From positions 1 through 46,016 of the IMG/VR virus record IMGVR_UViG_3300024520_000129: a stretch of DNA of 46,016 nt; one strand, written 5' to 3'. Both the position numbers and the translations under genes were made by a program. How positions within the stretch are numbered: position 1 is the first letter of the stretch; each line of letters opens with the position of its first letter. Shown in pieces: positions 15,335 to 42,577 of this stretch. The notes under the pieces are model-generated. The model did no database searches, was not told the origin of the DNA, and saw nothing but the letters and a program-made list of their open reading frames with translations. This stretch comes from a virus.

Positions 15335-16983
15335 TGGCAACTGCACTCGCACAGCAACTGTTCCCAGACGAGCCACTCACCCAGCAGTACGCTGACCAGG
15401 TGATCGAGGTCCTACGTCAGGCTGGGTTAGACCCCTTCATCCCTCTTACAATCGAGAACATCGGTGCCCTCATCCAGACGTTCGACCATGGGAGTACGGA
15501 CCAGCAGTTCGATCTCATGCAGCAGGCGATCCTGTTCCACTTCACGTACGAGCACACTATCCAGGCGCTCCGAGAATCCGACAAGGTAGGGGAGATAGCG
15601 AACCCGAACGCTGTTGACGAGATCAACGCAGTCACGGGTGGCATAGATGGTGGCTTCACATTCGCTCTCCCCGACCCTGGTACCACGCCAGGGATCGGTG
15701 ACACTGACCCAGGTACAGTGGAGGGACGTGACCAGGATGGGAACATCATCAGGTCCACTGGTATCCTCGGTGGTGGCACGCTCACCAGGGTCCAGCGTGC
15801 AGGCAGAGAAGACCTGTACTTCCAAGTGTATCGTGTCCCCAACTCGAACCAGTTCGTGTACTACCAGTTCGATCCGATCGACGTGCGTGGCGCTGAGGAT
15901 GAGAACGGGAATCCCATCGGTGATGGTATCCCCGACCAGATCGCTGAAACATTCGGTGGTCTCCTCCCCACCGTAGTCGTGTTCACTGAGGACCAGTTCG
16001 CTGCCCGTGACAACGTAGACATGTTCTTCGCTGGTGAAGCTGTGGACGTAGCAGGGATCACAGGCAACTTCACTCAGTTGTGGTACGAGGAGCAACGTCA
16101 AGCCCTGAACGCTGCTGGTATCACAGACCCAGGTCTCCAAGGGCGCCTCCTCTCCGACCCTGAGTACGCTAACCTGGTCACTCGTGCTAGCCTCCCAGGT
16201 GCAGTGATCACCCCTGAGCAGCTTCGTGCTGAACTGCGAGGCATGGCAGTGTACCAGGAGATTTACCCTGGGATCAACTTCTTCTTGGACCGTGGTGATG
16301 AGAACCCTGAGGCTGCGTGGCGCACGTACCAGTCGAACGTTGAACCCCTACTCCGTGAGCTAGGCTTCGCACCCGACGAGGACGGTACGTTCCGTACTAC
16401 CATCGTTGACCTTCTCGACTCACGTGTGAGCGCTGAGGAACTACGAGAGTTCACACCCACGTTGAAACGTATCCAACAGAACCCTGACCTTAAGCCCCTC
16501 ATGGACGAGTGGGCACAACGTGAGCTAGGTAGGGCACTGGACTTCAACGAGTTCATCGACGTGCTCGAAGGGACCACAGACCCTGAACTGAACAGGGTCG
16601 TGGAAGCAGCCACCCTAGCGTTCGCTGCTGAACGGGCTGGTCTCAACGTCTCAGTCGAGGACATCCGAGGGATCGCTGACGCAGTGGACCTCACACCTGA
16701 GGCTGCGTTGCGAGCATTCACTGACGCTGACAAGGCGCTCCTCGCCATAGGCGAAACGGAGCTAGCTGGGTTCGGCGCCCAACGAGGAGACTTCCTCGAC
16801 GTAGCAGTAGGTAGGGCACCACGTTCAGGTCTCTCCCGTGCTGCTGTACTCAATTTGCAGGATAAGCTAGCGACCGAACGGGGACTCTCAGATGATCCTC
16901 GTGCTGGCTTTTTCCTAGGTTTCTCTCGGAGTGGGCAGCCACAGAGGCAGGGTCTCGGCCCTCTCGCTCTTGAGGGTGGGTAA
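15334..16983 (+). CDS. Putative internal virion protein
   Basis: This 549-residue protein has a helical N-terminus and a Gly/Asp-rich central part (about 95-215, including GGIDGGFTFALPDPGTTPGIG and calcium-loop-like DENGNPIGDGIPD). A long helical C-terminal half follows (ELREFTPTLKRIQQNPDLKPLMDEWAQRELGRAL). No catalytic motif is seen. It is the third member of the large coupled virion set before the capsid genes. Confidence 0.6.
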   Translation: MATALAQQLFPDEPLTQQYADQVIEVLRQAGLDPFIPLTIENIGALIQTFDHGSTDQQFDLMQQAILFHFTYEHTIQALRESDKVGEIANPNAVDEINAVTGGIDGGFTFALPDPGTTPGIGDTDPGTVEGRDQDGNIIRSTGILGGGTLTRVQRAGREDLYFQVYRVPNSNQFVYYQFDPIDVRGAEDENGNPIGDGIPDQIAETFGGLLPTVVVFTEDQFAARDNVDMFFAGEAVDVAGITGNFTQLWYEEQRQALNAAGITDPGLQGRLLSDPEYANLVTRASLPGAVITPEQLRAELRGMAVYQEIYPGINFFLDRGDENPEAAWRTYQSNVEPLLRELGFAPDEDGTFRTTIVDLLDSRVSAEELREFTPTLKRIQQNPDLKPLMDEWAQRELGRALDFNEFIDVLEGTTDPELNRVVEAATLAFAAERAGLNVSVEDIRGIADAVDLTPEAALRAFTDADKALLAIGETELAGFGAQRGDFLDVAVGRAPRSGLSRAAVLNLQDKLATERGLSDDPRAGFFLGFSRSGQPQRQGLGPLALEGG

Positions 16984-17011
16984 CTTCCCAGAAAGGTAGG
17001 GTGATATATAT

Positions 17012-17380
17012 ATGGCGAACCTAACTACAAGTCTGGCTTACCAGTCAGGTATCCCTAACGAGCACATTGATGCTATCAATGCTGCCATCGACGAGATCAA
17101 CCTTTCTGGTGGTGATGCGATGGGTGATAAGGTGCCTTCGGGAACCTCGAACGTCGCTTCGATCAAGGTTGGTACCGTAACGTGCACTGCAGCTAAGCTG
17201 ACTGAATCAGCTACTGCTGGGTTTCTGATTACGGGCATCGTGTTCTCACAAGCAGTGGAAGTATCCACAGCAGGTGCGAGCTTCGTAGCGTCCACTGCTG
17301 ATGCGACAGCGACCACTGTCACATTCACACGTGGAACCTCGGCTGCTGCCGATACCATCCACTACGTCTTCTACGGTTAG
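17012..17380 (+). CDS. Small beta-rich virion protein
   Basis: This 122-residue protein is rich in Ala/Thr/Ser/Val. Its C-terminal beta domain (SIKVGTVTCTAAKLTESATAGFLITGIVFSQ..., ATATTVTFTRGTSAAADTIHYVF) resembles in style the proteins at 19032 and 28020. A capsid decoration or cement role is likely from its position before the scaffold and capsid genes. ATG 17012 is preceded by GGTAGGGTGAT and an unusual run of alternating TA. Confidence 0.5.
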   Translation: MANLTTSLAYQSGIPNEHIDAINAAIDEINLSGGDAMGDKVPSGTSNVASIKVGTVTCTAAKLTESATAGFLITGIVFSQAVEVSTAGASFVASTADATATTVTFTRGTSAAADTIHYVFYG

Positions 17381-17395
17381 AAGAAAGGAGTACCC

Positions 17396-17422
17396 ATGTC
17401 AAAGTGGGTACTTCTACTATAG
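17396..17422 (+). promoter_or_regulatory. Candidate promoter overlapping a possible 8-codon leader peptide
   Basis: GGGTACTTCTACTATAG at 17406-17422 is the cleanest copy of the recurring motif and has a T7-like ACTATAGG end. The same bases are read as the tiny frame MSKWVLLL-stop (ATG 17396), preceded by a strong AAAGGAG site. AGGAGTACCC at 17386-17395 is a near-perfect inverted partner of GGGTACTTCT. The site is about 150 bases before the scaffold start. Confidence 0.5.
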
Positions 17423-17573
17423 GCTACGTAACCCACCTGAGTAGCCCCCAGCCACGTCGGCGTGAAGACGAACCCCGATACCCTCACGGCCCCCAGGGAA
17501 ACGAGGAGTGCAGGTGGACTGCACGTCAATGGACTTACCCTACGTTGACGTAGAACAGATAAGGGAGAGAGAC

Positions 17574-18068
17574 ATGACCGAGAACACCACTGTCACAGGT
17601 GTCGAAGACGACCTGACGGAGGGCCAAGCAGAGGACAATGATCTGATCAAGAAACTGCGTAAGCAGTTGAAGGATGCGAAAGCGCAAGCCAAGATCAGTG
17701 AAGAAGAGAATGTTGGCTTCCGAGAAACTCGAAGTCAAGCGCGAGTTGACCAGGTAACCGAAGCTGTCAATGGCCTAGGTTATCCCCAGGGCGTATTGGA
17801 CGCACTGTTGGCAAGGGTTCAGGATGCTGACGAGGACGAGTTCCTTTCCATCCTGACTGATCTGCAGTCGGTAGCCCCGACTGACGATCCCGACCCCACA
17901 GTTACAGAGGACGCCCCCGTGGCGCCCTCACCAGCCTCGCTTGGGCAGCAGGTAGCTGCTGCTGCTTCGGGTGGAAGTGCTGTGGATGGCGTAGCTCGCC
18001 TCGCTGCTGCGAAAAGCATCGACGAGGTTAACGCTATCGCTGCTGAGTTGGGGCTTGATCAAGTCTAA
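17574..18068 (+). CDS. Capsid scaffold-like protein
   Basis: This 164-residue acidic protein lies directly before the major capsid gene. ATG 17574 (MTENTTVTGVEDD) has AGGGAGAG at the right distance; the open frame extends upstream to GTG 17508, but that start has its AGGA too close. An acidic N-terminus is followed by a coiled coil (about 20-55, LIKKLRKQLKDAKAQAKISEEE), then a helical section, a disordered Asp/Pro stretch and a C-terminal Ala-rich helical end. This composition and position match scaffolding proteins that shape the procapsid and then leave it. Confidence 0.65.
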   Translation: MTENTTVTGVEDDLTEGQAEDNDLIKKLRKQLKDAKAQAKISEEENVGFRETRSQARVDQVTEAVNGLGYPQGVLDALLARVQDADEDEFLSILTDLQSVAPTDDPDPTVTEDAPVAPSPASLGQQVAAAASGGSAVDGVARLAAAKSIDEVNAIAAELGLDQV

Positions 18069-18096
18069 GATTGCCTCACACTAAAGGAGATTACCC

Positions 18097-19032
18097 ATGG
18101 CTGTAGACCAGTTTTCGGGTACTTCTGCTCTAGCTGATCAGGTACAAACTGCATACGATCGTAACGCCTACTTCGGTTTGCGTACGATGCCAGTCTTCGA
18201 CCAGTTCGTGGACGTGAAACCTGGCAACGTTACCTCTCCTGGTAGCGCTGTCCAGTTCCTCCTCTGGACTGAGATGACTGCTGCGACCACTGCTCTCACC
18301 GAGACAGTTGACGTTGATGCTGTTGCCCTCGCTGACACCACGGTTACCGTGACGCCTAGTGAGTATGGTAACGCCATCCTTGTCACCCTCAAGGTTGAGA
18401 AGGACACGTTGCTCGTAGGCTTCGACCCAGACCTCGCGAATCTGTTGACCTATAACATGGTCATCTCGCAGGACACCATCGCACGTACTGCGTTCGATGC
18501 TGCTGGTACGGCTGCCTATGTCACGGGTTCTGCAGAGACCTCGCAGACCACGACTTCGATTATCACTGCCGACATTGTTCGGCGTGAGCGTTCGAACCTC
18601 GTGAACAGTGCTGTCCGTCCTTGGACGGGTAGTCTGTATGCTGCCCTCGTCCATCCAGACGTTGGCTATGACCTGAAAGGCGAGACTGGCGATGGCACCT
18701 GGGTTGCCCCCCACCAGTATGTTGACACTGCTGCGATCTACAACGATGAAATTGGAACCTTCGGTGGTTTCAAGTTCGTCGAGACTAGTCGTGCGTCTGT
18801 CAACCTTACGGGTGGTACGGGATCAACCGTGGACACCTACAACACTTACTTCCTCGGACAGCAAGCTGTTGCTAAGGCTGAGCCAATCGCTCCTCACGCT
18901 GTTATCGGACCTGTCACTGACAAGCTCTTGCGTTTCCGTCCCTTGGGATGGCATGCGTACATGGGCTACGGTACGTTCCGTACTGCGTCGATGCAGAATC
19001 TTTTGAGTGCTAGCTCTCTCGGAGGTGCCTAA
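18097..19032 (+). CDS. Major capsid protein, N4-gp56-like
   Basis: This 311-residue protein has a good ribosome site (AAAGGAG). The pattern 'TALTETVDVDAVALADTTVTVTPSEYGNAILVTLKVEKDTL' near residues 65-107 is typical of N4-gp56 family capsid proteins (HK97 fold). A later segment, SLYAALVHPDVGYDLKGETG, is also typical. It forms the icosahedral shell. GGGTACTTCT, the core of the recurring promoter-like motif, also occurs inside its first codons (18117-18126). It is coupled to the next gene by TAATGG. Confidence 0.85.
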   Translation: MAVDQFSGTSALADQVQTAYDRNAYFGLRTMPVFDQFVDVKPGNVTSPGSAVQFLLWTEMTAATTALTETVDVDAVALADTTVTVTPSEYGNAILVTLKVEKDTLLVGFDPDLANLLTYNMVISQDTIARTAFDAAGTAAYVTGSAETSQTTTSIITADIVRRERSNLVNSAVRPWTGSLYAALVHPDVGYDLKGETGDGTWVAPHQYVDTAAIYNDEIGTFGGFKFVETSRASVNLTGGTGSTVDTYNTYFLGQQAVAKAEPIAPHAVIGPVTDKLLRFRPLGWHAYMGYGTFRTASMQNLLSASSLGGA

Positions 19033-19416: not shown

Positions 19417-20307
19417 TTAGAGATAATGTTCGTCGTACCAACGTACTGTACTGATGACCGTGGACCACTCAAGGAATGGGGTGAACCCCAACACTTTACC
19501 TTGCTGCTCTAACCGTGCCTCCGTCATCGTAGCCCCGAAGCCATCATCGGTTTCGCCAGGACGCATGGGCAGGAACTCCATTTCTAGTGGCACTCCTGCG
19601 AATGCGCTGATACGTTCAGCTAGCTTACGTACGCTCATGTTGCCATTCATTGCTGCACCGTAGAAGTGGGGAGCTTCGATGCTCGCATGGTCTAAGGCTG
19701 AGACCATGACCCTCGCTATGTCTCGTGCGTGCACGAGGTTGATCATCTGGTCACCTTCCCCGTACACGGGGAGAGGTTTCCCTTCGAGCGCAGCGAGAGC
19801 GAACGTGGGGACTATCTTTTGGGGGTGTCCTGGTCCGTGCGCTTGCCTCGGCCCGAAGGCGTTAAACGCTTGGACAGTAGCGAGACGAAGACCCTTGTGT
19901 TCAGCAAGGCCTCTCGCAAGACGTACGCCCGCACCCCTCGTAGTCTCATACGGATTCGTCCAAACGTGTGGTTGTTCAATCGTGACATACGGTACCTCCA
20001 GTCGTCGGGCTGCTTCAGCCACATTGTATTGTCCTTTGACATTCACGTCGATAGCTGCCTCGACATTGTCGAATAGTTCGTGCGTACCGAGGAGGCCAGC
20101 GAGGTTGATGACGCCCGTGATCTCGGTGCTCTCACCTAGGGCCATAGACATCTCGATGTTCTCAGGTCCCCAGCGCACGTCGATGTACTCGATGTGATCG
20201 TCCCTCGGGTAGGCGTTGTCCATCGGGATGACAGACTTACCTTGCTCCATCAGCACGTCCACTACGTGGGACCCGATGAACCCTGCTGCGCCTACGACTA
20301 CGATCAT
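19417..20307 (-). CDS. NAD-dependent epimerase/dehydratase (extended SDR)
   Basis: This 296-residue protein has a Rossmann nucleotide-binding start (GAAGFIGSH, the GxxGxxG pattern at 6-12) and a family-typical middle (INLAGLLGTHELFDN, NAFGPRQAHGPGHPQKIVPTF). These enzymes interconvert nucleotide sugars. The catalytic Tyr-x3-Lys is altered: Tyr120 is followed by Arg124 (PYETTR) rather than Lys, so activity may be changed. ATG 20307 overlaps the upstream glycosyltransferase stop (ATGA), so the two form one operon. They probably make or attach a sugar to the host envelope, phage DNA or virion. Confidence 0.85.
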   Translation of the reverse strand: MIVVVGAAGFIGSHVVDVLMEQGKSVIPMDNAYPRDDHIEYIDVRWGPENIEMSMALGESTEITGVINLAGLLGTHELFDNVEAAIDVNVKGQYNVAEAARRLEVPYVTIEQPHVWTNPYETTRGAGVRLARGLAEHKGLRLATVQAFNAFGPRQAHGPGHPQKIVPTFALAALEGKPLPVYGEGDQMINLVHARDIARVMVSALDHASIEAPHFYGAAMNGNMSVRKLAERISAFAGVPLEMEFLPMRPGETDDGFGATMTEARLEQQGKVLGFTPFLEWSTVISTVRWYDEHYL

Positions 20308-21074
20308 GGCCTTGTGTCCTTGTTGTCAGGGTTAGCGTACCACACTTGTGTTGCCATTTCGTGTGTGATCTCAAACTTCTTGATGTGCCCACACTTCACG
20401 TTAGTGTCGATGAGGGGAGTCTCCCCTGTGGCTGCTTTCGCTCGTTCGAAGAACTCCATGTCGGGTCCCTTCGGGGTGTTCCCTGCTCCTTGTTCTAGTT
20501 CGTCGATCCAGATGTTGTTGTACTGTGGCTCGTACATGGCGTGCATGGCTTCGAGCACTGATCGGTGGATCAGGATACAGAAGAACCCTGTTGCGTCAGC
20601 TTCCACGTACCGTTGCCACGGTGGTTCGTTGATGATGTACGTGTCCCCAATCGCACCACCTGACTCTTCGATGTGTGGGTCATCGTCTAGGGCTTCCATG
20701 ACAATGGAAGCTAGGAACGGTGGGTTCGATTCGGGCTTGTAGATGTAACCGAGGCCACCTACGAGTTTGCGTTTCTTCGTTTCGGCTGTGTGTAGTAGCG
20801 TCTTGAGCGCATCTTTGGGGAGTACCATGTCAGCGTCCACCATCCAGAACCATTCGAACATGGGTGGGGACTGCATGAAGTCTTTGATCACCTGGTTCCT
20901 GGCACGCTGAATGCGTGCCCCTCCTCCACCAGTGAACCCTTGGAGTCTACGTTCTGCGATGACGTTGCTCGCCAAGCTGATGGCAAACTTGTCTTCGACT
21001 TGCGTTGGTGAGACAAACCCTGCCATCACAAGACCTTTGGTCTTGGAAGGTCGCCTCTTCTTAGCTCTGCTCAT
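20304..21074 (-). CDS. Glycosyltransferase, GT-A type
   Basis: ATG 21074 gives 256 residues. The open frame extends 54 codons further, but that would run across the promoter-like motif at 21096 and the next rightward gene. MVDADMVLP (Asp80-x-Asp82) is a DxD motif of GT-A fold transferases, which binds the metal and nucleotide sugar. Preceding RARNQVIKDFM and following ATGFFCILIHRSVLEAM fit the family. The N-terminus is basic. It is transcribed against all structural genes and couples to the epimerase downstream, which suggests an acquired cargo cassette. Confidence 0.75.
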   Translation of the reverse strand: MSRAKKRRPSKTKGLVMAGFVSPTQVEDKFAISLASNVIAERRLQGFTGGGGARIQRARNQVIKDFMQSPPMFEWFWMVDADMVLPKDALKTLLHTAETKKRKLVGGLGYIYKPESNPPFLASIVMEALDDDPHIEESGGAIGDTYIINEPPWQRYVEADATGFFCILIHRSVLEAMHAMYEPQYNNIWIDELEQGAGNTPKGPDMEFFERAKAATGETPLIDTNVKCGHIKKFEITHEMATQVWYANPDNKDTRP

Positions 21075-21095
21075 TAGTGGAGATGATAGTAGGTA

Positions 21096-21112
21096 GGGTA
21101 CTTTTAGTATAG
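21096..21112 (+). promoter_or_regulatory. Candidate phage promoter (GGGTACTTTTAGTATAG)
   Basis: This copy of the motif ends one base before ATG 21114. There is no ribosome site in the gap, so a transcript starting at its final G would be practically leaderless. It restarts rightward transcription after the leftward cargo pair. Confidence 0.55.
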
Positions 21113-21113
21113 C

Positions 21114-21422
21114 ATGCCAACATTTACACCGACGACCTATGATGGTCCTAGTCGCATGGCTGGACCTGAGCGAGATCATCCCCAGCAAGGCTCTGACTTC
21201 TGGAGATTCTATCGTCAACTCCCGATTGGGTACCATGTACTCATCACTAGTGGGGTTGCCACAGCCAGTCCTGGTGTTCAGTCAGTGGACACTGAGGATT
21301 TAGATAACGCTGACTCAGGTAGTGGGGAAGGGGGTAAGGCCTGGTTCCGTGGAGGCCTTACGTACACAGTAACAGCAGCCGAGGATACGATCTTGAGCGC
21401 TGCAGGATACACGGTAACTTAA
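21114..21422 (+). CDS. Small virion-associated protein (unknown)
   Basis: This 102-residue protein has a polar, Pro/Gly-rich N-terminus (MPTFTPTTYDGPSRMAGPERD) and a beta-type C-terminus (AWFRGGLTYTVTAAEDTILSAAGYTVT). No family is recognised. It is the first gene after the candidate promoter and has no Shine-Dalgarno sequence. Confidence 0.5.
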   Translation: MPTFTPTTYDGPSRMAGPERDHPQQGSDFWRFYRQLPIGYHVLITSGVATASPGVQSVDTEDLDNADSGSGEGGKAWFRGGLTYTVTAAEDTILSAAGYTVT

Positions 21423-28316: not shown

Positions 28317-29480
28317 ATGAAGAACCTGGCGATCATCGCCTTACTCATCGCCCTCCTCACGGGGGGCGTTGCTTATGCAGGACCGAACGCTCAGGGTGTT
28401 CAGGTCCCCACGTTGAGTGAGTTCAACGCTTTGGAGGCAAGGGTATCTGCTCTCGAAAACGCAACCACAACCACGGTAGTCCCCACCTCGACAACCACGA
28501 CAGTGCCACCCACCACATCGACAACTGTACCCCCGACCACAACCACGACCGTACCTTCAACACCAGTCACGGTCCTTCCCCTTGACGGAGTGGTCCCATG
28601 TGACCAGTGCACCGTCGTCGGGGTCGAGGGAGTCGTCTACGATAGTGTTGACTTGAACGGGAGGACCAACGTAATCCTTCGGGATGTATACGTTGACGGT
28701 AGTCTTGGGGACAGTGGCCCCCTTCAGTCGGGCACGGTCAATATCCGAGGCGCTACGAACATCGAGCTTCGCAACGTGCAGGTCATCAACAGCCCTCGCT
28801 CGTGCTTCAGCCTCGAAGGGTCGACCAACGTGACACTCGACGCAGTGAGATGCGTAGGCGCCGAACATCTTGCAGTGCATGGTGGGTTCGTCAACGACAT
28901 CACCATCATCAACAGTGAGTTCACTGGCTTCAGTGGCAGGAACGTTGACATCGGGTGGGAGAGTGGAGCTATCAAGCTCCTTCGTGGTGAGAACATCACG
29001 ATAAGGGGGAATTACATCCACGACGGTAACGGTCCTGGCGTATGGCTCGATGGGGGCATACTTGGGGCCGAAGTATTGGAGAATCGTATCGACAATCTCT
29101 CGGCTGAAGGTATCTTCATCGAGATATCCCGACAGGTGAATATCGAGGGCAACACGGTACTCCGTGCGCCCAACGCTATCACCTCCAGTCGGATGAACTG
29201 GTGCTACGGGGCTGGCATCCTGATAAGTACGAGCGACCTGGTAACCGTCGTCGGGAATGAAGTGACATCCTCTGTTCATGGTATCCTCGTTATTGATCAG
29301 TCGTGGAGGGGCGATACTCCCCAAGGCTACGACGCTGGTAATTACTCGGTCGTTGGCAACACGGTGAATCAGGTGAACAAGGTAGGGGCTTGCGAGGACG
29401 TGGGATCGGCTGACGTATTCGATGGTCTTTGGAGCGACAACACGTTTCTGAATGTATCATCGTTGCTTCGTCCCCTCTAG
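28317..29480 (+). CDS. Secreted right-handed beta-helix protein with Thr/Pro linker
   Basis: This 387-residue protein has a Sec signal (MKNLAIIALLIALLTGGVAYA, cleavage after about residue 21). A short coiled coil (LSEFNALEARVSALEN) and a Thr/Pro linker (about 51-81) follow. Parallel beta-helix rungs then run to the end (TNVILRDVYVDGS, TNIELRNVQVINS, TNVTLDAVRCVGA, ENITIRGNYIHDG). The coil suggests a trimer. Beta-helices of this type bind or cut polysaccharide, but no catalytic residues can be assigned. A signal peptide on a phage beta-helix is unusual, since virion tailspikes lack one. The linker style is typical of Acidimicrobiia. The 3' end overlaps the opposite-strand gene by 24 bases. Confidence 0.75.
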   Translation: MKNLAIIALLIALLTGGVAYAGPNAQGVQVPTLSEFNALEARVSALENATTTTVVPTSTTTTVPPTTSTTVPPTTTTTVPSTPVTVLPLDGVVPCDQCTVVGVEGVVYDSVDLNGRTNVILRDVYVDGSLGDSGPLQSGTVNIRGATNIELRNVQVINSPRSCFSLEGSTNVTLDAVRCVGAEHLAVHGGFVNDITIINSEFTGFSGRNVDIGWESGAIKLLRGENITIRGNYIHDGNGPGVWLDGGILGAEVLENRIDNLSAEGIFIEISRQVNIEGNTVLRAPNAITSSRMNWCYGAGILISTSDLVTVVGNEVTSSVHGILVIDQSWRGDTPQGYDAGNYSVVGNTVNQVNKVGACEDVGSADVFDGLWSDNTFLNVSSLLRPL

Positions 29481-37230: not shown

Positions 37231-37594
37231 CGTATGCTCTCTGAGTTTGGGTGAAGTGGAACAGCGTGAAGCAATGCCACGCTGCGTGCATCAGGTGTGA
37301 TTCACCTGACTCGGGATCAATGTCCTCACCCTGCCAGAAGGACCAGAGGTGACGCATCAGTGCACTGTATGACAGTGACCAGTCGTACCCCTTACGGTAG
37401 TTGCCTCGTTCGTACTTGTCTGCGCCCATGGCGTACACTCTAGCGAGCGCACGTATGGCTTCGGTTGGGATATCATCGTACTGTTCAGGCTTGGTGCCCT
37501 TCTCTCCCCCTGTGGGGGAGGTGGTGCGAATTTCGTGCGAGATGCTCCCGATGAACTCGTCCATGATTGCATCTTGAAATGGGAGCTTAGCCAT
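37211..37594 (-). CDS. dATP/dGTP pyrophosphohydrolase-like protein (DUF5664 type)
   Basis: The 127-residue sequence 'DDIPTEAIRALARVYAMGADKYERGNYRKGYDWSLSYSALMRHLWSFWQGEDIDPESGESHLMHAAWHCFTL' matches the phage family annotated as dATP/dGTP diphosphohydrolase N-terminal (PF18909/DUF5664). Members are thought to trim nucleotide pools. No PurZ-type gene for modified adenine is seen here. It overlaps the sigma-like gene. Confidence 0.7.
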   Translation of the reverse strand: MAKLPFQDAIMDEFIGSISHEIRTTSPTGGEKGTKPEQYDDIPTEAIRALARVYAMGADKYERGNYRKGYDWSLSYSALMRHLWSFWQGEDIDPESGESHLMHAAWHCFTLFHFTQTQRAYDDRQTD

Positions 37595-38165
37595 GGTCGG
37601 TCATCCCTTCCACCTGCTCAACGAACGTGCTCCACTCAGTGATACGACCGAGGTCGGTGTCACCCTGATTGTGGGGCGCATCGAACAGGTACGCTGCTAT
37701 CCCTGCCTCTTGCATCTGACGTACGTACTCGGGACTGTCATCCAACCCGAAGCTCGCACCCATGATGCCCTTGTTCCCCGTGAACAAGAGGCCACGGTAA
37801 GGTATCGCTGCCTCACGTAACCAGTCCACGGTGTTGTCAATAATTTTTGAGTACAGTCCGAACTTGCTGAGCCTGTTGGTTGCGAGTGTGATGTGGAACT
37901 CCATGTCACTGAGTTGCCAGAGGGCGTCACGTGCGCCCTCGATGATGGGACCTTGACGATAGATCACATCATCCTCAATACCCATGCGCCACAGCCTATC
38001 GAACTGACCCTTCGGGATATCCCAGTCCTCCCAGACTTCCCACGACTGGTAGTCTGCGATGTCTACGTCTACCCCTTGGTAGTGCAGGTACCCAGCGACT
38101 GTGGCTATCCAGTCATACACTGTGTTGTCGAGATCAACTATGATCTCGGGTCTTCCGTTGATCAC
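37587..38165 (-). CDS. HAD-family 5'-nucleotidase-like phosphatase
   Basis: GTG 38165 gives 192 residues; it overlaps the upstream stop (GTGA) and has GGAGG four bases upstream. Motif I is DLDNT (Asp11, Asp13, Thr15). 'LATNR' and 'FTGNKGIMGASFGLDDSPE' supply the later HAD motifs. It resembles phage deoxyribonucleotidases of the NT5C type, which dephosphorylate nucleotides, and it sits beside another nucleotide-pool gene. Confidence 0.78.
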   Translation of the reverse strand: MINGRPEIIVDLDNTVYDWIATVAGYLHYQGVDVDIADYQSWEVWEDWDIPKGQFDRLWRMGIEDDVIYRQGPIIEGARDALWQLSDMEFHITLATNRLSKFGLYSKIIDNTVDWLREAAIPYRGLLFTGNKGIMGASFGLDDSPEYVRQMQEAGIAAYLFDAPHNQGDTDLGRITEWSTFVEQVEGMTDHG

Positions 38166-38482
38166 CAATCCTCCATCTCTAGGGCATCGTCGAGCCTGAA
38201 CACGACGAGCCAACGGTTACGGTCCTCACGCATGACGAGGGCATCAGCACCCTCCTCAATTGCTTGGTCCATGTGCTTGTACAAGGTACGCATGCCCTTC
38301 TCGAAGCGCTTGACTTCGAGAGTACGGGCTAGAAACTTAAGCCTCTTGTACTTGCGCACCACATCGACGCCCCTCTTACGAGGGCGTGACACCTTGATCC
38401 CATTGACCAAGCGTGCCACCTCATACTCACCTTGCTTGCCTCGGCGCTGTGACTTAGCGCCCAAGGTAACTGGTCTCGTCAC
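38162..38482 (-). CDS. Hjc-like Holliday-junction resolvase / PD-(D/E)XK nuclease
   Basis: The pattern 'RRGKQGEYEVARLVNG...RKRGVDVVRKYKRLKFLARTLEVKRFEKG...LYKHMDQAIEEGADALVMREDRNRWLVVF' is that of archaeal-type resolvases found in phages (Glu, Asp, Glu-x-Lys). It would cut branched DNA before packaging. GTG 38482 is given; TTG 38464 is an alternative, and neither has a good ribosome site, so translation is probably coupled to the upstream gene. Confidence 0.7.
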   Translation of the reverse strand: MTRPVTLGAKSQRRGKQGEYEVARLVNGIKVSRPRKRGVDVVRKYKRLKFLARTLEVKRFEKGMRTLYKHMDQAIEEGADALVMREDRNRWLVVFRLDDALEMEDW

Positions 38483-38807: not shown

Positions 38808-39491
38808 TTAGTACGGTCTTTCAATATCGTTCATCTCCACTGTCACCAAGTCCCTGATCGCCTTGATCCTGGCGAACACGGTAACGGTGGAGACACCCCA
38901 ATACTTGGCTAGCCTGGGTCCAGCACCACGCTCAGCACCCACGTGCAACCAGTCCCTCACCCACTGAGCCATCGGCTCATCGAGGCGACTGATCACCTCA
39001 TCCAGTGCCTGTGTCAGAGCGAGGCGATGGACTACCTCGCCATAGCTATCAGTCGGGTCAGGTATGACATCCTCCACGTGACGCACCTTGTTTCCCGACC
39101 CACGTAGTGGTCGGGACAGTGAGTCAACGAAGGGCATGTCTGACACTGGACGTTGGGCTGTCACCACACTGAAGGGTGCGCTGATACCAACCCACCCTAG
39201 CGTACGGTCCACGTCCTTCTGCATCATGGCACGCATCCAGTGATGAGTGAATGTCCCGATAGTCCCCTGTTCAGGGTCCCAATCCTTCACCTCGAACGCA
39301 TGCAAGAACCCCACTGCTGCTGCCTGCTCGTAGTCCTTGGTCAGGTGCTGACGACCGAGGAACGCAGCGTGTGCGTTCACTGCCTCGATCAGCCTGCCTT
39401 GGTTAGCTTCGAGCATGACAGCAGGGCTGCGTGTCTCTTGCCACAAGCGCACGTTCTCCTCGTGCGCAGCCACATCTCTACTCTTGACCAT
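38808..39491 (-). CDS. Sigma-70-like factor B
   Basis: ATG 39491 gives 227 residues. Region 2 lies at about 36-95 ('DYEQAAAVGFLHAFEVKDWDPEQGTIGTFTHHWMRAMMQKDV'), with 'ISAPFSV' after it as in many sigma factors. The C-terminal helix-turn-helix (about 191-213, PRLAKYWGVSTVTVFARIKAI) fits region 4. Unlike factor A it keeps both DNA-reading domains. It may direct host RNA polymerase to phage late promoters. Confidence 0.75.
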   Translation of the reverse strand: MVKSRDVAAHEENVRLWQETRSPAVMLEANQGRLIEAVNAHAAFLGRQHLTKDYEQAAAVGFLHAFEVKDWDPEQGTIGTFTHHWMRAMMQKDVDRTLGWVGISAPFSVVTAQRPVSDMPFVDSLSRPLRGSGNKVRHVEDVIPDPTDSYGEVVHRLALTQALDEVISRLDEPMAQWVRDWLHVGAERGAGPRLAKYWGVSTVTVFARIKAIRDLVTVEMNDIERPY

Positions 39492-39714
39492 CAGCCACAT
39501 CCTTCCATGCCTTGGCCTTACTCTCACGTATCAAGGAATCGATCCGACGCACAGCGTCAAGGCGCCTACCATATCGTGACACAAGCATCCCACCCCAGGT
39601 GTTGTAGTGCTCAACGAACGTGCTACTCCATGTATCCTCGATAGCATACATGCGAGTACCCAACCCATTCTCTTGCAACACGACACGCCATCGTGTTTCT
39701 ATGTCGTCTACCAT
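39478..39714 (-). CDS. Small hypothetical protein (78 aa)
   Basis: A mixed helix-strand protein (MVDDIETRWRVVLQENGLGTRMYAIEDTW...) with a charged helical end (RRIDSLIRESKAKAWKDVADG). It overlaps the sigma-like gene downstream by 14 bases and the upstream gene by 7. Function unknown. Confidence 0.6.
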   Translation of the reverse strand: MVDDIETRWRVVLQENGLGTRMYAIEDTWSSTFVEHYNTWGGMLVSRYGRRLDAVRRIDSLIRESKAKAWKDVADGQE

Positions 39715-40067: not shown

Positions 40068-40236
40068 AATCAATCCACTCCCTGTGCTCGAAGCACACTT
40101 GCCAATGCGCACCTATCATCCCAGCCATCGGGACACGGTACGGTTTCGTTTCTATTTCTTTCCGACACACATGGCATATGGTGGCACCCCGTTGGGTGCC
40201 ACGCTTCATGCCCTGTACTATCTTGCCCTTCACCAT
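40045..40236 (-). CDS. Small treble-clef-like zinc protein (63 aa)
   Basis: ATG 40236 is joined to the upstream stop by TAATGG. Cys-x2-Cys (TICHVCRKEIE) and Cys-x2-His (WQVCFEHRE) form a likely zinc site of the kind seen in small phage nuclease-like or adaptor proteins. It has a basic N-terminus. Function unknown. Confidence 0.6.
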   Translation of the reverse strand: MVKGKIVQGMKRGTQRGATICHVCRKEIETKPYRVPMAGMIGAHWQVCFEHREWIDYEHEGSV

Positions 40237-40544
40237 TAGTACCAATCGTCATTCAAGCGTGGGTTACGAACCAACGCCCACTGATCTTCCGTCTTCATGT
40301 CCCCGTCAGTTGTCTCGTACTCAGTACGACACGTGTCCTTCCCACACGCACCAAACTCCTCATCACCACATTGGCACACATCCCAGACCTCGGCTGCGTA
40401 GTAGAAATCATCCTGCTCGTAGTCGTTCTGCTCGTACCAATCATCGGGATCAGGTGGCTCATCGTAGTTGGGCATGTCCCAACCCAATGGCTCACCGTAA
40501 TCGTTGTAATATACCTGCGCTCCTGCTGGTGGGAACATCACCAT
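40236..40544 (-). CDS. Acidic Tyr/Asp-rich protein with Cys cluster
   Basis: This 102-residue protein is very rich in Asp, Glu and Tyr (DEPPDPDDWYEQNDYEQDDFYY). A Cys cluster (DVCQCGDEEFGACGKDTC) may bind zinc. GGAGG precedes ATG 40544 and overlaps the lipoprotein stop. Function unknown; charge mimicry is conceivable. Confidence 0.55.
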   Translation of the reverse strand: MVMFPPAGAQVYYNDYGEPLGWDMPNYDEPPDPDDWYEQNDYEQDDFYYAAEVWDVCQCGDEEFGACGKDTCRTEYETTDGDMKTEDQWALVRNPRLNDDWY

Positions 40545-41383
40545 CCTCCTTCTATTGCGTACTGATGCTGATTGAAGTAGATCACTGCCTCAACCTCACC
40601 ATACAGTTCCCGAACAAGACCGTTAAGCCACGCTCGCTTGTCATCCCTCACCGTACCAGTCTGAGCTAGCAACACGGGTAGCCCATGCTCAGCGTGTGCT
40701 CGCACCTTACCTGCTACATCCTGCGCCCCGTCAAAGTCATATGCCGAGGGGCATAACACATCCACATGTGGAAGCACAGCCTCCACATATGGGTCAACGT
40801 TAGCCATGATGGTGAAGCTACCACACCACCGATGGTGACCAGGGTCCAACGACCTGATCCTCTCGTATGCCTGCGCTACCTGCTCAGGTGTACCATGGTA
40901 GCTCACCCATTCCCCGTTGGCCTCAGCCAAGGGTGCCACGATCTCACCCTCTGGTACCTGGCCTAGTATGCTGCGCCAACACTCATCCATGTCACCTGAT
41001 AACACATCTGTTATCGGACGACCCGAGTTTTCTATGTAGATAAAGGGTTTGTTCCCATACATCTGCGCTAGCCTATGAGGCATGACGTACGCTCCAGCAC
41101 ACGCACCCACATAGGTCTGTTGATACGCTGCTACTACTGGCTCCGTCTCCCACCCTGGTTGGAACACACCCACATTAGACTTCAAACGGGTACTCGGTGG
41201 ACTCGTACTCGTGGTCGGAGGGTAGGTGGTCGTCGATGAAGACGGTACCCTCGTGGTCGTGGTGGTCACAACGGACGTGCCTCGGGAGCCAGATCGCCTC
41301 GACTCTCCCGTCATCGTGGTAGAACACGAGGTCAGGGTCACGATCAGGCACACCCATAGTGTTAGCCATCTCACGACCACCAC
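40538..41383 (-). CDS. Lipoprotein with GH26-like glycoside hydrolase domain
   Basis: The frame is open from GTG 41383 (281 residues). GTG 41374, with AAGG nine bases upstream, is an equally good start. A hydrophobic signal ends in a lipobox (TLTSC, Cys20), followed by a Ser/Thr/Pro linker (about 36-66). A GH26-like barrel comes next: 'VGVFQPGW', 'PLAEANGEW' (acid/base Glu154), 'VDVLCPSAYD' and 'LLAQTGTVRDDKRAWL'. The position of the nucleophile Glu is Gln241, so hydrolysis may be lost and a binding role remain. It is predicted on the outside of the host membrane. It overlaps another plausible gene (41175-41369). Confidence 0.65.
   Translation of the reverse strand: MVVVRWLTLWVCLIVTLTSCSTTMTGESRRSGSRGTSVVTTTTTRVPSSSTTTYPPTTSTSPPSTRLKSNVGVFQPGWETEPVVAAYQQTYVGACAGAYVMPHRLAQMYGNKPFIYIENSGRPITDVLSGDMDECWRSILGQVPEGEIVAPLAEANGEWVSYHGTPEQVAQAYERIRSLDPGHHRWCGSFTIMANVDPYVEAVLPHVDVLCPSAYDFDGAQDVAGKVRAHAEHGLPVLLAQTGTVRDDKRAWLNGLVRELYGEVEAVIYFNQHQYAIEGGW
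41175..41369 (-). CDS. Acidic small protein, overprinted with the lipoprotein gene
   Basis: This 64-residue frame from ATG 41369 (MANTMGVPDRDPDLVFYHDD...) has ordinary protein-like sequence (GRVEAIWLPRHVRC) and an acidic His/Asp-rich end. Its whole length lies inside the signal, linker and early part of the lipoprotein gene in another frame. It resembles neighbouring small acidic proteins in composition. Either both frames are used or one is fortuitous. Confidence 0.45.
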   Translation of the reverse strand: MANTMGVPDRDPDLVFYHDDGRVEAIWLPRHVRCDHHDHEGTVFIDDHLPSDHEYESTEYPFEV

Positions 41384-41613
41384 CCTTGATCAAACATCCA
41401 GTTCACGAATGCTTCGCTCTCTTCCCACTCACCCATGCTGATGCACTGCTCAACGTCAAGTATCGACTCGTCGTTACGCATGACTGCAACAGCAGCCATA
41501 TCAACCTCGTTGATCAGGTTCAACGTACCCTCACGTGCCAAGTCAGCAGCCACCTCAGCACACGTAGCATTCTGCTCCACCATCATCGCCATAATCGGTG
41601 TCAATCGCCACAT
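41371..41613 (-). CDS. Small helical hypothetical protein (80 aa)
   Basis: The sequence has a helical, Met/Ala-rich N-terminus (MAMMVEQNATCAEVAADLAREGTLNLINEVD) and an aromatic end (SEAFVNWMFDQGWWS). CAGGTGAT precedes ATG 41613. Its end overlaps the start region of the lipoprotein. Function unknown. Confidence 0.6.
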   Translation of the reverse strand: MWRLTPIMAMMVEQNATCAEVAADLAREGTLNLINEVDMAAVAVMRNDESILDVEQCISMGEWEESEAFVNWMFDQGWWS

Positions 41614-41614
41614 C

Positions 41615-41782
41615 TTAGATCACCTGCATCCCTTCGTTCATGCACTCATCGTGCGCAAAGCCATCACCATACTGCGTGACAACCTCGGTAATGTCATCCT
41701 CAAAGTCATACTCAGTGAACGGGTCATCACACCCGATGCACCTACCGTACCATTCAGGCCTCATGTCCATGGTCATCTCCAT
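41615..41782 (-). CDS. Small zinc-finger-like protein (55 aa)
   Basis: The frame runs from ATG 41782, or ATG 41776, to TAA 41615-41617. The inner ATG overlaps the upstream TGA and has AGGA about seven bases before it, so it is the likelier start (53 aa). The product has Cys-x2-Cys (GRCIGCDDPF) and a later His-x3-Cys pair (AHDECMNE), consistent with one zinc site, separated by an acidic stretch. It fills the gap between two neighbouring genes. Function unknown. Confidence 0.6.
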   Translation of the reverse strand: MEMTMDMRPEWYGRCIGCDDPFTEYDFEDDITEVVTQYGDGFAHDECMNEGMQVI

Positions 41783-42369
41783 TCCTGGTGTCCATCAACT
41801 ACATGTACCCACGTCAACGCTTGCAACTCGTGACCCAAGAGGCCAACGGCCTCGGCCACCGTAGCATACGCACCCTCAATCAGTCGGTACCCTGCTAAGC
41901 TACCACGTGCAAGGATAGCAGCAGCAGCAGCAGCATCAGCCACTGCTATACGTGCACTATGCCTATCCACCGTGATCACACGGTCACGACGAGGGAACCT
42001 CAGGTTCTCAGCGTAGCTACTAATCTTCGCTGCGTTCTTGAACGTAGGTGCCTCACCTGTGCGCCTGACCTGGGCTATACGAGACACGATGTCAGGGAAA
42101 TGCTTCACCCTACGCTTACGTAAGTAGCGCATGAAGGACGCATCATTCTCCAACACCGTACTGTTCGCACTCAGCAGCGCATAGATATGGAACGCACGCT
42201 CAACATCAAGGCCATAAGCCTTCGACTGTTCACGTATCCACGATCCCTTCATCGTGTACCACCTAGTAGCCTCACCCTTGTCACAGTGCACGCACTGAAC
42301 TGCGTCCTCATACACTGCGAGGATATTCTCCTTCATCTCTTCACTTGTGATGTCATACTTGACTGGCAT
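41773..42369 (-). CDS. Conserved phage protein, HhH/glycosylase-like pattern
   Basis: ATG 42369 (MPVKYDITSEEMKENI) has AGG eight bases upstream and gives 198 residues. The open frame extends further, without ribosome sites. 'FPRRDRVITVDRHSARIA' followed by 'GYRLIEGAYATVAEAVGLLGHELQALTWV' is a pattern I associate with a common actinophage family (DUF7178-like). It loosely recalls the VDxHxxR segment of HhH-GPD DNA glycosylases. An early Cys-x2-Cys (VQCVHCDKG) is also present. Enzyme activity is not established. Confidence 0.6.
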   Translation of the reverse strand: MPVKYDITSEEMKENILAVYEDAVQCVHCDKGEATRWYTMKGSWIREQSKAYGLDVERAFHIYALLSANSTVLENDASFMRYLRKRRVKHFPDIVSRIAQVRRTGEAPTFKNAAKISSYAENLRFPRRDRVITVDRHSARIAVADAAAAAAILARGSLAGYRLIEGAYATVAEAVGLLGHELQALTWVHVVDGHQEWR

Positions 42370-42577
42370 ATGTGTACCTGCCTTCCTCTCTATCTCCAAC
42401 GCTGTCATACAATCTGTATGCTCCAGCGTACCAACGTACCTCGTTGGAATGTGTCTCACCATTGCCCTTGTGCGTGATGTCATACGTGGTGATAACCCTG
42501 CCATCTTGAGCAGTGCTACCCGTAACCTTATGCTCACTCACGAACCCCGTCTTCAAGCACCAACAACCTGACTGCAT
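42353..42577 (-). CDS. Small hypothetical protein (74 aa)
   Basis: ATG 42577 (MQSGCWCLKTGFVSEHK) follows GGGAGA and overlaps the upstream TAA (TAATG). Beta-type sequence (SEHKVTGSTAQDGRVITTYDITHKGNGETHSNEVRWYAGAYRLYDS) suggests a small barrel. Function unknown. Confidence 0.6.
   Translation of the reverse strand: MQSGCWCLKTGFVSEHKVTGSTAQDGRVITTYDITHKGNGETHSNEVRWYAGAYRLYDSVGDREEGRYTYASQV

Follow-up and report, generated by a model that had tools for sequence, protein, structure and literature searches.

A phage-encoded putative lipoprotein with a Gln-type GH26-like domain that may hold glycan of the host envelope

Analysis of an entire virus record of 46,016 bases, further referred to as the window, pointed to a minus-strand gene coding for a lipoprotein that, on balance, probably grips a glycan of the host envelope by means of a Gln-type GH26 domain carried on a lipid anchor.

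The open reading frame concerned (40538-41383, minus strand) starts with GTG, codes for 281 amino acids, and contains the motifs PLAEANGEW and LLAQTGT. A second GTG at position 41374 overlaps the TGA stop codon of an upstream gene of 80 amino acids as GTGA (sequence around the start: ...AAGGGTGGTGGTCGTGAGATGG...), and because of this overlap it is the likelier start. All residue numbers given below are counted from GTG 41374. The gene and its immediate surroundings consist of the following features:

41371..41613, minus strand: upstream gene of 80 aa, the stop codon of which overlaps the lipoprotein start (translational coupling)
40538..41374, minus strand: lipoprotein gene, 278 aa from GTG 41374 (281 aa from GTG 41383), stop codon included
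41324..41374, minus strand: predicted signal peptide and lipobox L-T-S-C, with Cys17 as the lipidated residue (sequence pattern)
41180..41323, minus strand: low-complexity Thr/Ser/Pro linker, residues 18-65 (48 residues; sequence)
40541..41179, minus strand: GH26-like (beta/alpha)8 domain of the Gln type, residues 66-278 (213 residues; profiles, alignments, and model)
40236..40544, minus strand: downstream gene, the start of which overlaps the lipoprotein stop (ATG 40544, or ATG 40538 after AGGAGG)

The 3' end of the lipoprotein gene carries AGGAGG and a TGATG overlap, indicating coupling to the next gene, and its GC content per codon position is within the range of the other genes of the window. 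The product from GTG 41374 begins with MRWLTLWVCLIVTLTSC, i.e. a charged start, a hydrophobic stretch, and a lipobox with Cys, which identifies a lipoprotein by pattern only. Lipidation is predicted from this layout, as is display at the surface of the host membrane, which is likely. A surface lipoprotein had been proposed in the initial annotation, and the lipobox signal, the Thr/Ser/Pro linker, and the 213-residue domain that such a layout comprises were all retrieved. The only other stretch in the window that resembles this linker occurs in a second secreted protein with a Thr linker (28317-29480, plus strand). This protein has a signal peptide, its linker is of the TTTTTV type, and its main part forms a right-handed beta-helix (Beta_helix in Pfam, 1.1e-16, besides a weak GH28 match).

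Among the 36 phage records matched by the major capsid protein of the window, the best was Streptomyces phage Kumquat (41% identity), a phage classified in the Beephvirinae. The plus strand carries the genes for terminase, portal, and capsid proteins and the minus strand those for a primase, a DnaB-like helicase, and an exonuclease, beyond which the lipoprotein gene is located in the minus-strand region. Of the relatives found, record G663 is the closest (capsid 57%); it has a block in common with the window up to approximately 36.5 kb, and none of the window ORFs between 36.5 and 46 kb gave a BLASTP match in G663 (E 1e-3). This indicates that the lipoprotein gene belongs to an accessory early region, in agreement with its earlier description as an early-strand phage gene. 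A promoter scan returned fewer sites than were found in shuffled sequences, and two annotation-free scans with the nearby helicase gene, both depending on exact short words, gave no match. The lipoprotein operon is adjoined by a gene for a DUF7178 protein (41773-42537, minus strand; 3.6e-18), for which no match occurred in ten related phage records. The same strand also encodes a 5'-deoxynucleotidase of the NT5C type (37587-38213; 1.4e-18) and a protein weakly similar to a phage RNA polymerase sigma factor family (38808-39527; E 0.008), which may be a late-gene regulator. Genes for a nucleotide-sugar epimerase and a glycosyltransferase (19417-21236, minus strand) are oriented against the late genes; in G663, their counterparts run in the direction of the capsid gene, indicating that this two-gene cassette has opposite orientations in the two phages. 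Finally, a search of the window for tRNA genes was negative (cf. 16980-18097), and Kumquat has 21 tRNA genes directly before its capsid gene and one elsewhere.

As a single query, the window protein returned no PHROG, NCBIfam, or PDB-chain match and no Pfam PF02156 match at E 1. Similarly, tblastn with the lipoprotein gave no match in phages or plasmids, tblastn with the domain alone in phages at E 10 gave three weak matches, none of which was accepted as kin, and a pattern scan of genome contigs with the window protein, which depends on exact short words, gave no match. Profiles of relatives did recognise the domain. A profile of Glu-type GH26 sequences (140 ORFs with the GH26 motif HE.NG.W.PW, from actinobacterial and other genomes) scored 13.4 bits (E 0.007 among approximately 3,500 sequences), and a Gln-type profile built from 25 cellular relatives, with the window left out, scored 50.2 bits (E 4e-14) in a search set of approximately 3,500 sequences that included 500 shuffles, the best of which reached 5.9 bits. 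With the motif residues masked, the Gln-type profile still scored 29.3 bits, versus 9.7-12.6 bits for Glu-type profiles; with the entire acid/base block masked, these values were 15.7 and 9.4 to 12.6 bits, respectively. For the domain, hhalign returned 97.7% with the Gln type and 93.5% with the Glu type. The Gln-type relatives themselves exceeded the Pfam GH26 cut-off in four out of five cases in one set and in nine out of ten in another. Moreover, a Gln-type profile comprising the window (alignment A1, 13 rows) retrieved the GH26 lichenase CtLic26 (2cip) among the PDB sequences at E 9e-35.

A structural model was in line with these results. AlphaFold2 gave a poor model from the sequence alone (pLDDT 40), which was discarded, and a model with eight strands when alignment A3 was supplied (pLDDT 83, pTM 0.82). 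As A3 consisted of 87 Glu-type GH26 sequences, the GH26 likeness of this model is partly built in and does not count as evidence separate from that of the sequences. The top Foldseek match was CtLic26 (E 6.7e-11), and VIA-align ranked the CtLic26 entries 2vi0 (Z 19.5, 2.5 A over 207 residues) and 2cip (Z 19.4) above the first rows outside GH26 (Z 15.9, GH39), with 2ddx counted as a GH26 member. In a viral structure library, the best matches were GH5-type phage proteins and no GH26 match was among the results, an absence that is not to be read as evidence of absence. Some of the N-terminal barrel loops present in the relatives are missing in part from the phage domain (213 versus approximately 280 residues), so that its cleft may differ from theirs. 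Taken together, the Gln-type profile, the relatives reaching Pfam GH26, and the model make it nearly certain that the domain has a GH26-related fold. The earlier claim of a GH26-like barrel was thus borne out by the profile score, the Pfam-positive relatives, and the model. Superposition, the check suggested at that time, yielded a complete barrel with GH26 lichenases as the best matches, subject to the same dependence on a GH26 input alignment; neither an unrelated fold nor another Glu at the nucleophile position appeared.

The residues of the putative active site, for which the domain numbering is given in brackets, are encoded as follows:

40934..40936, minus strand: codon of A147 (domain A82), at the site of the GH26 subsite -1 Arg (alignment)
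40925..40927, minus strand: codon of A150, at the site of the GH26 His of the HE motif (alignment)
40922..40924, minus strand: codon of E151 (domain E86), acid/base position after strand 4 (alignments and model)
40661..40663, minus strand: codon CAG of Q238 (domain Q173), nucleophile position in strand 7 (alignments, model, and comparison with 2cip)

In the model, domain residue E86 comes after strand 4 and domain residue Q173 is positioned inside strand 7. The Glu-type alignment has Glu in the acid/base column in 90 out of 90 rows, including E151 of the window, and the nucleophile column, which was the same in three separate alignments, contains Glu in 89 out of 89 Glu-type sequences and Gln (Q238) in the window. 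Both readings of the initial annotation, namely a kept acid/base Glu in PLAEANGEW and a Gln instead of the nucleophile in LLAQTGT, therefore stand. The acidic residues conserved in at least 12 of the 13 rows of the family alignment are D65, E86, and D140 (domain numbering), none of which supplies a second carboxylate on strand 7. The His of the HE motif and the subsite -1 Arg are both Ala in the window (A150 and A147), so that this feature of retaining enzymes is absent. Indeed, position -4 is Ala in 25 out of 26 Gln-type rows versus Arg in 58 out of 68 Glu-type rows, and position -1 is Gln, Pro, or Ala in Gln-type rows versus His in 57 out of 68 Glu-type rows, a His count that is biased, as 40 rows were picked by a pattern that fixes this residue. 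In the mannanase BoMan26B, Arg-197 and His-200 belong to subsite -1 and Glu-291 is the nucleophile, which match the positions examined here; the same study mentions that the His of the HE motif is also missing in a xylanase branch and in one branch of unknown function (PMC6556568). On the +1 side, Gly and Trp are kept, as G89 and W91 of the domain correspond to G204 and W206 of BoMan26B (PMC6556568).

A further comparison is that with CtLic26. The aligned 2bv9 chain reads IIIAEFAS and the 2cip chain IIIAQFAS, the latter entry being entitled "Structure of the Michaelis complex of a family 26 lichenase". Money et al. (2006) reportedly obtained this lichenase crystal from a designed Glu-to-Gln mutant. 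The same Gln in the form with uncut substrate is the strongest argument that Gln-type proteins may bind without classical cleavage. Classical retaining hydrolysis by the phage domain is, judging from its residues, improbable. The proposal that the domain binds rather than cuts has thus become likelier through the family-wide Gln and the comparison with 2cip; the binding of glycan itself we infer, as fairly probable.

The Gln is not restricted to the phage. Among 396 Actinomycetota genomes, the best match was locus L130, an ORF of 691 residues with CWB2 repeats that scores above the Pfam GH26 cut-off, and a search started from L130 matched 33 of the 296 genomes of its class, the Acidimicrobiia. 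Several other candidates were set aside, as L125 and L131-L140 turned out to be in wrong frames or to belong to other families, and L126 to L129 were weak matches of which none was used. After merging of identical sequences, 65 matching ORFs gave 61 cellular rows, which formed with the window a set of 62 rows. Gln occupies the nucleophile position in 27 of these, the window included, and 26 of the 27 keep the acid/base Glu. The pairs of acid/base and nucleophile residues are E-E (27 rows), E-Q (26 rows, including the window), and E-gap (four rows), besides single rows with R-E, N-gap, G-Q, G-G, and gap-E. Every row with the block [IVLF]AP[LFM].E carries Gln, and the window possesses both the block and the Gln that define the clade. 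Further Gln-type loci (L286 to L289) all carry Gln as well, two of them being places already counted. The window domain is 19-27% identical to its Gln-type relatives (L130, L142-L164, and L175) in alignment A1. Gln-type sequences occur mainly in the Acidimicrobiia, and a second small class has L175 and L286 (two out of 66 genomes at E 1e-40). Scanning of ten full-length Gln-type ORFs revealed SLH in four, CWB2 in two, PEGA in one, and no named anchor in three. These alignments show that the Gln is a mark of a clade of cellular surface proteins, many of which are wall-anchored, and not a private change of the phage. The view of the Gln as a phage-specific loss had thus to be abandoned. Cell-surface display is the common theme of the Gln-type relatives, which the phage would keep by way of its lipobox and linker. 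A sub-branch of the Gln clade, formed by L167 (154-2541, with SLH-like repeats) and L169 (1450-2211), has lost the acid/base Glu (Gly and Asn, respectively), which suits a non-catalytic role at least in that sub-branch; L167 retains the Gln, and L169 seems to be without it too. No name was found for the Gln-type family, and neither natural GH26 proteins with a Gln nucleophile nor phage GH26 lipoproteins were found in the open-access literature, which is the sole basis for calling them undescribed.

A descent of the phage domain from this clade is favoured by its motifs (the A-P-L and Gln block) and the profile scores. In a tree inferred without the nucleophile column and two acid/base columns, one change splits the Gln from the Glu rows (SH-aLRT 99). 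The window falls among the Gln rows there, although its branch is very long (2.8-2.9), and its grouping with the Gln clade had a support of 90 after removal of further motif columns. With the motif columns removed, an AU test did not reject a tree in which the window groups with the Glu type (p-AU 0.74), which leaves room for that placement. A first AU test that apparently rejected the latter grouping was unsound and was discarded, as six unclassified rows had been forced to the other side. As to other viruses, no Gln-type match was found in 43 related phage records (42 of the 80 loci found via the capsid protein, and Streptomyces phage Kumquat), many of which are fragments, in a search without a positive control, although the alignment used did yield matches in another search. 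Scans of viral contigs with the protein and two Gln-type alignments found no other virus, which is not proof of absence, as exact short words are needed. The single match of a motif-pattern scan of viral contigs, L171, had its motif inside an unrelated long ORF and was rejected.

According to the preferred reading, a Beephvirinae-like siphovirus of an actinobacterium would make the lipoprotein in its early region, and the flexible Thr-rich linker would display the Gln-type GH26 domain on the surface of the host membrane. In the clade to which the domain appears to belong, the nucleophile Glu would have been replaced jointly with the His that partners it and with the subsite -1 Arg, and the acid/base Glu and the residues on the +1 side would have stayed. 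As the nucleophile carboxylate is missing, the covalent intermediate of a retaining GH26 enzyme is not expected, and a glycan chain would be held in the intact cleft, as in the crystal of the Michaelis complex, where CtLic26 has Gln for Glu. In the phage form, the lipid anchor would replace the wall anchor of the cellular relatives. The most likely use would be to occupy or cross-link a glycan in the envelope of the infected cell, so that a receptor might be hidden from other phages; such receptor masking or superinfection exclusion is speculative and of rather low probability.

In a stricter version of the latter idea, the domain would attach to the phage's own receptor and block later phages. 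It is equally tentative. An accessory early-strand gene with a lipobox and a linker fits it, and the lipoprotein Llp of phage T5 offers a precedent; Llp, however, works quite differently and in another kind of envelope, being a small periplasmic protein directed at an outer-membrane transporter (PMC9586334). Furthermore, PADLOC returned no match for the window protein.

The conservation of the acid/base Glu in 26 of the 27 Gln-type rows is more than a pure lectin would need, and so counts against a binding-only reading. It would fit an unconventional enzyme that cuts or rearranges an N-acetylated wall glycan through neighbouring-group participation. In such an enzyme, the acetamido group would be held by the Gln, with the kept Glu as acid/base, and the phage lipoprotein would edit the surface glycan of its host. 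The Gln is also invariant among rows with the IAPL.E motif, a pattern suggestive of an active site under selection, the relatives sit on cell walls, and GH85-type enzymes make use of an Asn/Glu pair. Nevertheless, such catalysis is unlikely, as no GH26 enzyme working in this way was found in the literature searched and L167 has the Gln yet lost the Glu. The lipoprotein could also be a passenger: a surface domain acquired from a host, on which selection is relaxed and which has no function in the phage. Its long branch, the replacement of the family-conserved P, N, Y, and K by F122, T123, L136, and L167 (residues of the phage protein), and its absence from all 43 related records searched speak for this. 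Against it, the frame is intact and coupled to both neighbours, the lipobox is intact, E151 and Q238 are kept, and codon-position GC is typical of the window, so that loss of function is improbable too. Finally, an assembly or sequencing error that turned the Glu codon GAG into CAG, a single base apart and seen in one record, can practically be dismissed, because Gln-type cellular proteins carry the same Gln together with the same A-P-L acid/base block.

In a broader sense, and as a possibility only, the clade may have turned the GH26 site into a natural substrate trap or a neighbouring-group catalyst, one copy of which was captured by the phage and lipid-anchored to hold or edit host glycan. 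The Glu-to-Gln change of the crystal with uncut substrate appears to occur naturally, in a conserved surface clade in which the supporting Arg and His are replaced alongside. For the envelopes of Acidimicrobiia, about which little is known, the clade offers a collection of domains that bind glycan or have unusual catalysis, and one such domain is carried by a phage. If the phage protein binds glycan of the host envelope, it would point to a receptor used by uncultured actinophages and to a way of masking the surface unlike that of the small coliphage lipoproteins.

Compared with known systems, the protein shares features with several of them. CtLic26 (endoglucanase H of Clostridium thermocellum; 2bv9 and 2cip) has the same fold, acid/base position, and strand-7 block, but its wild type possesses the Glu nucleophile, the HE motif, and the subsite -1 Arg, it is approximately 16% identical to the phage domain, and it is an ordinary secreted enzyme, whereas the phage protein is a predicted lipoprotein. 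The Gln-type proteins of Acidimicrobiia (L130, L142-L164, and L175) have the same IAPL.E motif and nucleophile Gln and are likewise secreted and surface-held, but several have SLH or CWB2 wall anchors and their N-terminal barrel half is bigger. BoMan26B is also a surface-exposed GH26 member; it is active and has both Glu residues as well as Arg-197 and His-200 (PMC6556568). Lastly, Llp of T5 and Cor are, like the window protein in class, phage-encoded lipoproteins, which bring about superinfection exclusion; they are small periplasmic proteins of coliphages that target a transporter and not a glycan (PMC9586334).
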